From Niabella soli DSM 19437 (GTDB taxonomy: Bacteria; Bacteroidota; Bacteroidia; Chitinophagales; Chitinophagaceae): 64,000 nucleotides of DNA. The stretch lies in the NCBI RefSeq assembly GCF_000243115.2, contig NZ_CP007035.1, positions 2,666,001 to 2,730,000 of the forward strand, read 5' to 3'. Of the stretch, positions 34,140 through 38,694 are shown one piece after another. The number at the start of each line of letters is the position of its first letter. Position 1 is the first letter of the stretch. Under the pieces are notes generated by a model. The model saw only the letters and a program-made list of their open reading frames with translations. It was not told the DNA's origin and did no database searches. The position numbers and the translations under genes are program-made.

Positions 34140-36113
34140 TTACATACTGCGCCGATATTGCCCTCCAACCTCATATAATGCATGGGTGATCTGCCCTAAA
34201 GAACAGGTTTTTACACAATCCATGAGCACCTCAAATAAATTGGTGCCTTCAATAGCGGCCTGTTTTAAAGCAGTAATGGCCGCAGCGTTTTTTTCGTTAT
34301 TGCGTTCCCGGAAGTTTTTGAGATTGGTTATTTGTTGCTCTTTTTCGGCGGGGATGCTGCGGATCACTTCATTGGGTAAAACGGTAGGGCTTCCCTGTTT
34401 GTTTAAAAAAGTATTTACTCCAATTAAGGGCAAACTGCCGTCGTTCTTTTTCATCTCATAATACAGGCTTTCCTCCTGGATCTTATTGCGCTGGTACATG
34501 CGTTCCATGGCGCCTAAAACACCGCCCCGTTCATTAATGCGGTCAAATTCCGACAATACCGCTTCTTCCACGAGATTGGTCAGCTCCTCAATGGCGAAAC
34601 TCCCCTGTATAAAATTTTCCGACGCTACAGTGCCCAGCTCCCGGTTAATGATCAGTTGTATCGCCATTGCCCTGCGTACACTTTCTTCTGTTGGTGTAGT
34701 GATCGCCTCATCATAGGCGTTGGTATGTAAGGAATTACAGTTATCATAAATGGCATACAGCGCCTGAAGTGTGGTGCGGATATCATTAAAATCGATTTCC
34801 TGGGCATGCAGGCTGCGACCCGATGTCTGGATATGATATTTTAATTTTTGAGAACGCTCATTGCCTTTGTACACATTTTTAATCGCCTTGGCCCAGATCC
34901 GGCGCGCCACACGACCGATGACGCTGTACTCAGGATCCATACCATTACTGAAGAAAAAAGAAAGGTTGGGCGCAAAATCATCAATATGCATGCCGCGGCT
35001 GAGGTAATACTCTACATAGGTAAACCCATTAGACAATGTAAAGGCCAATTGGGTTATGGGGTTGGCACCAGCTTCGGCTATGTGATAACCACTGATGCTG
35101 ACGCTGTAGAAATTTCTCACCTTGTTTTTTATAAAGTATTCCTGCACATCGCCCATTAGCTTCAGGGCAAACTCGGTAGAAAAAATGCAGGTATTCTGCG
35201 CCTGGTCTTCCTTTAAAATATCCGCCTGTACGGTGCCGCGTACTTTTGTTAAGGTAGCAGCTTTTATTTTATCATAGGTGGCTTTCTCTAACACCTCATC
35301 ACCGCTCAATCCCAGCAAACCCAGGCCCAGACCGTTATTGGAATGCGGAAGCCCTTCTGGTGATAATGGATTATTGTATTTAGGTTCAGGAAAATGTGCA
35401 AATTTTTCCTTACGGAGCGCCGCAACCTGATCCCACAGGTGATGTTCCTCAATGTATTTTTCGCATTCCTGGTCGATGGCAGCGTTGAGAAAAAAAGCAA
35501 GGATCATCGGCGCCGGTCCGTTAATGGTCATGGAAACAGAGGTCGCCGGATGACAAAGATCAAAACCACTGTACAATTTTTTTGCATCATCAACCGTAGC
35601 AATACTAACGCCGCTGTTCCCGATCTTTCCATAAATATCCGGTCGGTGGCCCGGGTCCTCCCCGTAAAGCGTTACACTATCAAAAGCAGTGCTCAGGCGC
35701 TTGGCGGCGCTATCGGCACTTACATAATGAAAGCGTTTATTGGTCCGCTCCGGGCAACCCTCCCCCGCAAACATCCGGGTAGGGTCTTCCCCCTCCCGCT
35801 TCAGATCAAATACGCCGGCGGTAAAGGGAAATTTCCCGGGCACATTTTCCTGCAACTGCCATTTCAACAAATCGCCCCAGTCTTTGTATTTGGGGAGCAA
35901 TATCTTTTTTATGACCGTTCCGCTCAAAGAGGTTGCCGTTAAAGGCAGGTTGATGGTTCTATCACGCACCGTAAATTCAAAAACGTCCTTTTCATATTGT
36001 TCCTGTAACCGTGGCCAGTTTTTCAACAGTTCCTGCAACTCCGGTTCCAGTTGCTTTTCCAGCGCCTGGTAATTTTGCTCTAATCGCTCCTTTATATGCT
36101 GATCCGATTGCAT
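34140..36113 (-). CDS. icmF: IcmF-type acyl-CoA mutase, catalytic large-subunit half (C-terminal half of a split IcmF)
   Basis: 657 residues. It matches the mutase (TIM-barrel) part of IcmF, not of ordinary methylmalonyl-CoA mutase: [45 protein letters not shown] and [20 protein letters not shown]. IcmF interconverts isobutyryl-CoA and n-butyryl-CoA (and related branched acyl-CoAs) with adenosylcobalamin. There is no B12-binding domain here; that and the G-protein chaperone are encoded at 37291-38694. The N-terminal ~45 residues are a helical linker ([20 protein letters not shown]) like the joint between the two halves of one-chain IcmF. The ATG shares one base with the stop of the nuclease gene (TAATG), so translation is coupled. 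Confidence 0.93.
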
Positions 36114-37291
36114 TATTTCCGGTTTTTTAATTTTTTGTAAAACGTTTTCACTTCATCCCGCAATTGCTTTGCAGTAGGCAGTTTGTTTTTTAATTTTCGG
36201 GGTAGCTCTTTGCTAAAGGTATATTCGCTTACACCTATTGGATGGTTAATATTCATCAACGCAAAATCAACTTCAACAGCATCTTTTGCAGCACATAAAA
36301 TAATTCCGATTGAAGGCTGATCCTGCTCCTGTTTCAACTGCTTGTTCACCATATTCAAATAGCCATTCATTTGTCCTGAATGAGCCATTTCAAATGCTTC
36401 CATTTTTAATTCGATCACGATAAAGCAGCGCAGAAATAAATGATAAAACAGCAAATCAATATAATAATCTTTTTTTCCTACTTTAAATTTCACCTGCCGT
36501 CCTACATAAGCAAAGCCGGCCCCGAGCTCCAAAATAAAATCACGGAGGTGATGTATCAAATGTTGTTCCAACTCGCGCTCTGTAGTAAATTCACCAATTT
36601 GGGGAAAACGGAAAACATAGGGATCTTTTAAAATCTGGTTAGCAAGATCCGCCTGCGGCTTTGGCAGGGTTAAATGAAAGTTAGAGATCTTCTTTGTTTT
36701 ATGTTGTCGCAGGTATAAATCGGTTGCTACCTGGTATTGTAACACCGCACGACTCCAGTTGTTTTCTATTGTTTTTTGAATATACCATAAACGTTCTGCA
36801 TCATCATTTATTTTATCGATCAGGTACGTGTGATGTCCCCACGGAATGCCTGTCAATAAAGGGTTTGACAGAAAATAGTCTGTCGCTTCAAATTGCGCAA
36901 CAGGTTGTTGCGTAAATGCAGCAGTTGATGACTTTTTTATCGTTGTTTTAGTTTTGGAAGCCCCGGAATTACGACCATTTCGTAATTGCGCAACAGGCTG
37001 TTGCGTAATTAGCAGATCAGGGTAGGTAACAGCAAATTGTTTCATATAGAGCAGGTTGCGTACGGAAAAGCCCCGTACATCCGGAAAAGACGTTTGCAGA
37101 TCATCAGACAGTTGTTCAATCACTTTTGCCCCCCAATCTTCCACATCAACCTTTTGAACGATCTGCTTTCCGATAAACCAATACAACAGCAACATGTTGG
37201 TATTAACTGCCAACGATGATTGCAGGCGGCTTTGCGCGATCTGCTCCTTTAAGGTTCCCAGCCATTTTTTATATGATCGGATTATTGCCAT
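36113..37291 (-). CDS. DUF1016/YhcG-family PD-(D/E)XK nuclease, nested between the IcmF halves
   Basis: 392 residues. N-terminal DUF1016_N helical domain (~10-175: [37 protein letters not shown]) and C-terminal YhcG nuclease domain (~215-375: FELELGAG-like [38 protein letters not shown], then LK), giving the Glu, Asp and ExK residues of the PD-(D/E)XK fold. An insert around 95-135 carries the peptide TQQPVAQ twice, encoded by two copies of a 23-base palindrome. Both ends overlap neighbours by one base (TAATG). No methylase or restriction genes adjoin. Family function is unsettled; links to defence or DNA processing are suggested in the literature. Confidence 0.88.
36893..36915. repeat. Palindrome copy 1 inside the DUF1016 gene
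   Basis: TTGCGCAACA-GGT-TGTTGCGTAA: 10-base arms with one mismatch and a 3-base centre. It encodes TQQPVAQ on the minus strand. The second copy lies at 36986. Confidence 0.8.
36986..37008. repeat. Palindrome copy 2 inside the DUF1016 gene
   Basis: TTGCGCAACA-GGC-TGTTGCGTAA: identical to copy 1 except one base in the centre, 70 bases away, same reading frame. Confidence 0.8.
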
Positions 37292-38694
37292 TATAAATTG
37301 AAATTCTTTATCACTCCGTCCAACTGATACAACTTCGTAGCAATGGCCGCTCTTTCATCTACCCATTGATTATACTGCCGGATGGATTCTGAAATGTCGG
37401 AAAGATAGCGCACTCTTTTGCCGGGAATAATGGCCTGCTCTGTTGGTGCGGCTCCCTGGAATGAAATGCTTTCCTCAAAACCAGCCGCACATTTTGCATT
37501 CAATACCCGGATAACCTTTAGAAACAGCTCATTGACGCCCCGGTCATTAAATTTCGCAGCAATGGTTCCAATAACGGGTAATGCCTCATCCGGCTCCTGC
37601 CATAACTGGTGATTTCTTTTATATTGTTTGCGTACTTCCATCAGTGCATCTAAAGCGCCCGCTTTATCAAATTTATTAATGCAGATGATATCGGCATAAT
37701 CGAGCATATTGATTTTTTCCAACTGGGAAGCCGCGCCATATTCAGGGGTCATCACATACATACTTGCGTCTACGTGATCAATGATAGAAGCATCGCTTTG
37801 GCCCACTCCGGCGCTTTCCAGGACGATCAGATCAAAGGCGGCATCTTTGCAAACATCGATTGCTTTTTGAATGGCGCCACTCAATGCCACATGATCATCC
37901 CTTGTGGCCATCGAGCGCATATACGCCCTGGGATGTGCAATGGCATTCATCCGGATGCGATCGCCCAGCAAAGCACCTCCTGTTTTTTTCCGGGAAGGAT
38001 CCACGGAAACAACAGCGATGGTCTTATCCGGATAGTGGTTTAAGAAGCGGCGCACCAATTCATCAGTAACAGATGATTTACCAGCGCCCCCGGTTCCGGT
38101 TATGCCTAACACCGGGATCGTTGTATCTTGTTTTTGCCCGGGTATCTTTACGGGGTTGTTGTTGCCGGATTCCACCTGGGTGATGGCCCGTGCAATAAAG
38201 CGAATGTCTTTCGCCTCCTGCAGTGGAGAAGCGCCCTTCCAGTGATCCGGCGCCCGGGCATAGGCGTTCAGCGCCGCATCGGACCCGGCATGGCGGATCA
38301 GGTCTTCGATCATTCCTTCTAACCCTAACTTTCTTCCGTCATCCGGACTATAGATCCGGTCAATACCATAACCCTCCAGCTCTTCTATTTCCTGTGGCAA
38401 AATCGTACCTCCCCCACCGCCGAAGATCTTTATATGCCCGCAGCCCGCCTCGTTGAGCAGGTCTTTCATATACTTAAAAAATTCAAGGTGGCCGCCCTGG
38501 TAGCTGGTAATAGCAATAGCATGTGCATCTTCCTCAATAGCGCATTCCACAATTTCCTGCACGCCGCGGTTATGCCCCAGGTGAATGATTTCCACGCCTT
38601 TCGACTGCAGGATCCGTCGCATAATATTTATGGCAGCATCATGCCCGTCAAACAGGGATGCCGCCGTAACGATACGTAAAGTAACCTTTTTCAT
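37291..38694 (-). CDS. icmF: IcmF-type B12-binding domain plus MeaB-like GTPase (N-terminal half of a split IcmF)
   Basis: 467 residues. Residues ~1-135 are a cobalamin-binding domain with the base-off motif LFDGHDAAIN (axial His18), ITSYQGGH and FGGGGG. Residues ~195-410 are the G-protein chaperone with Walker A GTGGAGKS (200-207), VDPSRKKTGGALLGDRIRM and the guanine motif NKFD (340-343). The C-terminal ~60 residues (YLSDISESIRQYNQWVDERA) are the linker that in one-chain IcmF leads into the mutase. With the 657-residue product of the downstream gene it sums to the size of one IcmF chain (about 1,100). The GTPase loads and protects B12 in the mutase. Confidence 0.93.
   Translation of the reverse strand: MKKVTLRIVTAASLFDGHDAAINIMRRILQSKGVEIIHLGHNRGVQEIVECAIEEDAHAIAITSYQGGHLEFFKYMKDLLNEAGCGHIKIFGGGGGTILPQEIEELEGYGIDRIYSPDDGRKLGLEGMIEDLIRHAGSDAALNAYARAPDHWKGASPLQEAKDIRFIARAITQVESGNNNPVKIPGQKQDTTIPVLGITGTGGAGKSSVTDELVRRFLNHYPDKTIAVVSVDPSRKKTGGALLGDRIRMNAIAHPRAYMRSMATRDDHVALSGAIQKAIDVCKDAAFDLIVLESAGVGQSDASIIDHVDASMYVMTPEYGAASQLEKINMLDYADIICINKFDKAGALDALMEVRKQYKRNHQLWQEPDEALPVIGTIAAKFNDRGVNELFLKVIRVLNAKCAAGFEESISFQGAAPTEQAIIPGKRVRYLSDISESIRQYNQWVDERAAIATKLYQLDGVIKNFNL

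Follow-up and report, generated by a model that had tools for sequence, protein, structure and literature searches.

A mobile DUF1016/YhcG nuclease gene as the probable cause of a two-part isobutyryl-CoA mutase (IcmF) in Niabella soli

Niabella soli DSM 19437 encodes the fused isobutyryl-CoA mutase IcmF in two genes, which are separated by an intact DUF1016/YhcG nuclease gene (yhcG). We confirmed this arrangement in a 64,000-nucleotide stretch of contig NZ_CP007035.1 (positions 2,666,001 to 2,730,000; hereafter, the window). The explanation that we prefer, and to which we give an even chance of being right, is that a nuclease gene capable of lateral movement entered the linker-coding region of icmF in a homing-like manner and left the host gene in pieces. 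Relatives of the nuclease occupy the same joint of icmF in a second family of bacteria, and sister species preserve the intact, decaying, and lost stages of the insert.

The split icmF locus

The three open reading frames (ORFs) are transcribed from the minus strand in the order 467, 392, and 657 amino acids (aa) (Table 1). Pfam places the B12-binding and MeaB domains in the 467-aa part and MM_CoA_mutase in the 657-aa part. A single NCBIfam model of fused IcmF, NF045497, is matched at positions 3 to 463 of 1076 by the former and up to position 1076 by the latter, with its best stretch at 693 to 1076. The IcmF-type B12-binding, G, and mutase domains are all present in the order described for the enzyme in the accessible text of its structural study (PMC10481361; PDB 4xc6), but they lie on two chains with a third ORF between, and the linker that joins them in the one-chain protein is broken. 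The first part aligns with residues 47 to 497 of PDB chain 4xc6_A and the mutase part with residues 529 to 1113 of 8ssl_A; because that text assigns residues 443 to 1093 to the linker plus the substrate domain, we place the break within the interdomain linker.

An earlier reading of the window made without database searches (hereafter, the sequence-only reading) had described IcmF as two genes around a complete DUF1016/YhcG gene, with both junctions formed by TAATG so that stop and start share one base. The ORFs, the family matches, and the sequence of both junctions bear this out. That reading had also put the insertion exactly at the domain joint; it does fall between domains, but inside the linker and not at a domain edge. 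Residue loss at the break, which it had raised as a point to check, is not evident: no block is visibly lost, and the two parts total 1124 aa, compared with open frames of approximately 1085 to 1290 aa in the listed fused relatives. At the level of the reading frames, stops and starts at both joints, with a complete ORF between them, tend to speak against an intein or intron that would be spliced out to yield one chain. The middle ORF spans DUF1016_N (2 to 137 of 137) and YhcG_C (2 to 157 of 157) in Pfam and retains the nuclease motif residues D279, E294, and K296.

Table 1. Features of the split icmF locus, in window coordinates and in order of transcription
Feature	Position	Strand	Matched by
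First part of split IcmF, 467 aa: B12-binding domain, MeaB-type G domain, start of linker	37291..38694	-	Pfam, NF045497, 4xc6_A
Joint 1, TAATG: one base shared by the stop codon of the first part and the yhcG start codon	37289..37293	-	
yhcG, 392 aa: DUF1016_N plus YhcG_C PD-(D/E)XK nuclease gene; PADLOC PDC-S02	36113..37291	-	
29-bp near-perfect palindrome within yhcG interdomain linker	36983..37011	-	
Second palindrome within yhcG, 23 bp, same arms as the 29-bp one	36893..36915	-	
Joint 2, TAATG: one base shared by the yhcG stop codon and the start codon of the mutase part	36111..36115	-	
Second part of split IcmF, 657 aa: end of linker and mutase (substrate) domain	34140..36113	-	Pfam, NF045497, 8ssl_A

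No second IcmF was found in the genome (a single contig of 4,697,343 bases), including the full-length copy that the sequence-only reading had named as a possible counter-finding. None of six matches passed the cut-off. Three of them correspond to the parts in the window; the others, as named from scores and positions, resemble a stand-alone mutase, a stand-alone MeaB-like G protein, and a weakly matching B12 domain. Elsewhere, one chain is the usual state. A search of public genome contigs confirmed at least 592 relatives, of which the best 80 were kept (records near the window's own genome may be missing), and both parts lie in one open frame in 78 of these 80. The remaining two are Kapaibacterium loci: L076 has a gene with a DUF4397 domain between the parts, and L092 has the mutase with the other part not nearby. 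These two and a pair of loci in family f4 (L129 and L130) appear to be independent splits; the f4 break point is earlier, such that a mutase chain of about 723 aa carries the linker.

A split clade within the genus

A search with the mutase part gave a match in 97 of 99 relatives. On a mutase tree of 92 rows, which took 30 of the 80 kept public loci and rows of at least 450 aa, the fused or split state requires at least 11 changes. This and the other trees are quick searches, with the exception of a careful tree of YhcG proteins described below, and several of the relative genomes are drafts. Nine of 17 genomes of the genus, the window genome included, carry a split icmF. Seven have the one-chain arrangement, some with frameshifts (G002, G003, G004, G007, G008, G012, and G013), and G001 gave no match. 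The nine split sequences form one clade beside the fused members of the genus (Shimodaira-Hasegawa-like approximate likelihood ratio test [SH-aLRT], 100), and all 16 group together in trees of three separate segments (support of 99, 84, and 87).

The joints of the split genomes hold the nuclease at every stage of preservation. The gene is intact in G000 and G014. In the draft genome G016 it is an in-frame deletion product of 141 aa that retains both TAATG joints; G009 has a deletion product through which the frame also reads, and G010 a remnant with a broken frame. In G005 and G006, inspection by eye identified short pieces of the ends of the gene. No recognizable trace was found in the joints of G011 and G015. 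The nuclease or a recognizable part of it is therefore present in seven of the nine split genomes; this count, together with the nine splits among 17 genomes, is more than chance would produce. Fused, intact, decayed, and trace-free states thus all occur among related genomes, the comparison that the sequence-only reading had suggested. Of the three internally deleted copies, two appear to keep the frame, a number too small to support an argument for an in-frame bias.

Both halves are under purifying selection, with ratios of nonsynonymous to synonymous substitution rates of 0.02 to 0.11 in the pairs for which they are defined. Combined with the series of intact, decayed, and lost inserts, this indicates that the nuclease disappeared on several occasions, whereas the enzyme persisted in its two-part form. 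The branch leading to the split clade measures 0.54 in the B12/G part versus 0.18 in the mutase segments, hinting that the B12/G part may have changed faster after the split.

The same nuclease clade at the same joint in a second family

Outside the genus, the window nuclease is most similar (52 to 60% identity) to proteins of three genomes of family f8 (G229, G178, and G085), each of which has the nuclease gene between its IcmF parts. A carefully built tree of 55 YhcG proteins, which excluded 6 of 63 loci for being short or broken and 3 for being duplicates, unites in one clade all five nucleases that reside in icmF in the genus and f8 (bootstrap, 100; SH-aLRT, 99.3). By contrast with their nucleases, the icmF genes of the genus and of the f8 hosts are not sisters in the mutase tree or the segment trees. 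That the nuclease reached both families laterally is accordingly a likely reading of these trees. Searches of 396 genomes from the order and 395 from the class (overlapping sets) yielded no further icmF-type nuclease; in the class genomes, the next best full-length match reached 45%. Phage and plasmid records searched for a vector gave matches below 60% identity only, the best listed at about 43 to 44%, and no relative was confirmed in viral contigs.

Among 30 f8 genomes, 14 are split, 9 are fused, and 7 are not settled owing to contig ends near the joint or the lack of a good match. Other cassettes occupy the joint in f8 and a further family, f16 (loci L232, L234, L236, and L126). G167 and G088 carry an AAA ATPase and a small partner there, G213 HEC-02A- and HEC-02B-like genes, and G152 a SWIM-domain protein. 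In addition to the nuclease, G178 has a short ORF that by eye resembles the start of this ATPase. Genes beside inserts were named by reading their sequences unless a family search is cited.

Some comparisons may point to movement at the joint. Across seven split and six fused f8 sequences, only two of 11 segments sort by split status, 441 to 480 and 481 to 520, and both lie at the joint; this was matched in 0 and 1 of 500 label shuffles, which ignore relatedness, but the nine other segments were drawn from the same genes. In close fused/split pairs such as G182/G167 and G162/G085, agreement falls from 0.90 to 0.97 just outside the joint to 0.36 to 0.39 at it. The f8 pattern fits either transfer of a tract around the joint or a shared adaptation of the new chain ends. 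In the sister genomes G000 and G016, the nuclease is identical at 397 of 424 positions, compared with 1191 of 1403 and 1713 of 1973 in the halves; at third positions the figures are 121 of 141 versus 308 of 467 and 436 of 658 (P = 7e-7). The edges of this high-identity block coincide with the TAATG joints.

Invasion, fission, and the rival explanations

We propose that a free-standing DUF1016/YhcG gene entered the linker-coding part of an intact icmF in the ancestor of part of the genus, most likely by a homing-like route in which a break at the empty site would be repaired by copying the occupied allele. One gene would thereby have become a row of three, probably coupled in translation because the stop and start codons of yhcG overlap its neighbors at both edges in the window. 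The two enzyme parts presumably assemble in trans, and given the selection acting on them they very likely form a working enzyme. The nuclease would be dispensable to that enzyme, free to decay or vanish as the two-part enzyme stays, so that the split behaves like a ratchet. The components of this scenario differ in strength. That the insertion caused the fission is probable, whereas the idea that the nuclease's own cleavage drives its spread is tentative and somewhat doubtful.

Several observations weigh against the proposal. Splits without the nuclease exist (G199, L092, and family f4). The fused pair G162/G172 also drops at the joint, to 0.50, and so the linker is variable in itself. Within the genus, residues are f8-like at 3 of 6 diagnostic columns near the joint versus 2 of 33 elsewhere, a weak sign, and the joint-flanking segment still groups with the fused members of the genus. 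The sign of recent exchange in G000/G016 is absent from G000/G014 and from three f8 pairs. Nor is yhcG in general embedded more often than other ORFs: among yhcG ORFs of at least 300 aa, 17 of 43 (one gene counted twice) have co-directional genes within 100 bp on both sides, compared with 20 of 48 other ORFs, and TAATG joints as a general yhcG target were rejected on the same counts.

The main rival holds that yhcG is passenger defense cargo, an anti-phage gene carried in a permissive, expressed joint of icmF and spread by ordinary homologous recombination through the icmF flanks. We consider it rather unlikely, though it accommodates much of what we see. The window nuclease matches the PADLOC profile PDC-S02 (E value, 6.9e-132), other inserts including HEC-02A/B and the ATPase and SWIM cassettes share the joint in f8 and f16, and the residues flanking the joint sort by split status whatever the insert. 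PDC families are candidates found within defense loci, and for PDC-S02 itself we found no test. The high-identity block in G000/G016, moreover, is edged at the gene itself and not deep in the flanks. We lean toward homing because a single nuclease clade is tied to a single site in two families. A different order of events, in which ordinary mutation broke icmF into two adjacent genes and the nuclease entered the short intergenic joint later, appears quite improbable. It draws on the nuclease-free splits: G199 has overlapping halves without an insert; the halves lie apart in G097, G066, and genus g116, the first part not being seen in the stretches fetched for G097, G066, and five g116 genomes; and the f4 and Kapaibacterium cases add to these, that of f4 with a different break point. 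Within the genus, G011 and G015 would be its examples, but seven of the nine split genomes hold nuclease sequence, and because G011 groups with the nuclease-bearing G000 and G016 (SH-aLRT, 97), its lack of the gene is more simply a loss. A split older than the nuclease, another counter-finding that the sequence-only reading had anticipated, was not shown, although two of the nine species are free of any trace.

The sequence-only reading had offered two accounts of the locus, and they fared differently. Insertion into the linker, leaving two halves, is well supported by the fused neighbors of the split clade, the lack of a full-length IcmF, purifying selection on the halves, and the nuclease remnants in relatives. 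Maintenance of the nuclease for co-expression is disfavored. A functional partnership, in which cooperation with the B12 enzyme, or control by it, is the reason why the nuclease is retained, would account for the tight TAATG joints and for their survival around the G016 deletion product, but the nuclease is intact in only two of nine split species, and other yhcG genes of the same genome adjoin unrelated genes; we judge it very improbable. Transfer of the whole three-gene row between the two families as one piece would explain why both share the same order and a related nuclease. The segment trees disfavor it, as all three icmF segments of the split species group with the fused members of their own genus, and it has next to no likelihood in our assessment. 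Three findings go beyond what that reading could see: nucleases of a single clade at this joint in a second family, different cassettes occupying it there, and the match to PDC-S02.

Other yhcG sites and the palindromes inside yhcG

Two further yhcG genes of the genome G000 sit in the tight metH1/metH2 and argF/argB joints, and another precedes uvrC. At the metH1/metH2 joint (loci L224, L256, and L257), yhcG is present in 2 of 17 genus genomes, with approximately 450 to 550 bp of other sequence in G003, G004, and G013. At the argF/argB joint (loci L226, L276, and L277) it is present in 8 of 17, one copy being cut short and one a remnant, and the start of argB and the end of argF differ between alleles that have the insert and alleles that lack it. 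The sister genome G016 is empty at both joints. Occupied and empty sites thus occur among close relatives at the icmF, argF/argB, and metH1/metH2 joints.

The window protein shares with the YhcG/COG4804/DUF1016 family, as described in the accessible text of PMC1189080, the same N- and C-terminal domains and an E-D-E(I/L/V)K type motif. D279 and K296 are invariant across 27 sequences, and E294 is present, being D in two of the five icmF residents. No sequence relative was found among solved structures (best E value, 0.44).

Between their two domains, yhcG genes contain in the coding sequence one or two palindromes of the form AATT-N8-NNN-N8'-AATT. The window gene has two near-perfect ones, both located in its interdomain linker (Table 1). 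The first scan covered 35 of the 55 genes, and later scans covered all 55. With arms of at least 10 (one mismatch allowed), palindromes occur in 50 of 55 genes, 67 of 76 of them at window residues 75 to 150; this lax threshold was also reached by 46 of 220 genes with shuffled codons and by 14 of 28 of the other ORFs in these loci. Arms of at least 12 are found in 42 of 55 yhcG genes versus 5 of 209 other ORFs. When at least 11 of 12 pairs were required, the fixed form of 27 bp was present within nucleotides 200 to 520 of 40 of 55 genes, compared with 1 of 55 for a control stretch taken from these genes. All 40 share one codon frame; among them, 30 distinct left arms occur, and the inner positions are occupied by several types of base pair. 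Complementarity is retained while the arms vary from lineage to lineage, and such covariation at a constant frame suggests that it is the symmetry that is conserved. Between G000 and G014, the palindrome is identical and the surrounding sequence differs. At the lax threshold, 9 of 12 yhcG genes from phage and plasmid records of other phyla have a palindrome at about nucleotides 290 to 405. The window palindrome was not found elsewhere in the genome within 3 mismatches. According to PMC1189080, the YhcG nuclease domain lies nearer to Holliday junction resolvases of the YraN type, and a cruciform is therefore an attractive putative target.

Relation to known systems and significance

Free-standing homing endonuclease genes have split host genes in phages: nrdA of phage Aeh1 is interrupted by mobE and gene 60 of T4 by mobA, and the start of T4 mobE lies in a one-base UAAUGA overlap with nrdA, according to the accessible text of PMC2988022. 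The icmF locus resembles the first two in having a stand-alone endonuclease gene inside a host gene left as two coding regions, and the third in its one-base overlap with the upstream gene, which reads TAATG here. As with such genes, a related nuclease occupies the same site in separate hosts. The phage mob genes in that text differ in being HNH enzymes with nicking and biased inheritance shown, compared with a PD-(D/E)XK nuclease gene known from sequence in a B12 mutase gene of a bacterial chromosome. Likewise, the accessible text of PMC1189080 reports no conserved neighborhood for the family, whereas here one clade is tied to one site within a split gene. Compared with PDC-S02, the profile match is strong, but the gene stands inside a metabolic gene. 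In the mitochondrial cox2 gene, insertional fission reportedly broke one gene into complementary genes, going by a title; that case differs in being mitochondrial and in concerning another gene. No paper on YhcG in split genes or on palindromes inside yhcG was recognized in the literature searched, the coverage of which was partial, making this a weak negative.

A broader reading, speculative and in our judgment unlikely, is that DUF1016/YhcG genes are an unrecognized class of free-standing homing elements of bacterial chromosomes. They would have lineage-specific sites at gene joints or linkers (icmF, argF/argB, and metH1/metH2), copy themselves into empty alleles, be able to split host genes nonlethally, and mark themselves, within their own reading frame, with a lineage-specific palindrome that their nuclease, which resembles Holliday junction resolvases, might recognize, perhaps as a cruciform.

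At the icmF locus, a mobile nuclease gene is the likely cause of the fission of a large multidomain metabolic enzyme in a bacterial chromosome, and the steps are readable and testable because sister species preserve the intact, decaying, and lost stages of the nuclease. The natural two-part IcmF lets one ask whether the covalent fusion of the G-protein chaperone to the mutase matters, and invasion of this kind would give the large, uncharacterized DUF1016 family a testable way of life.

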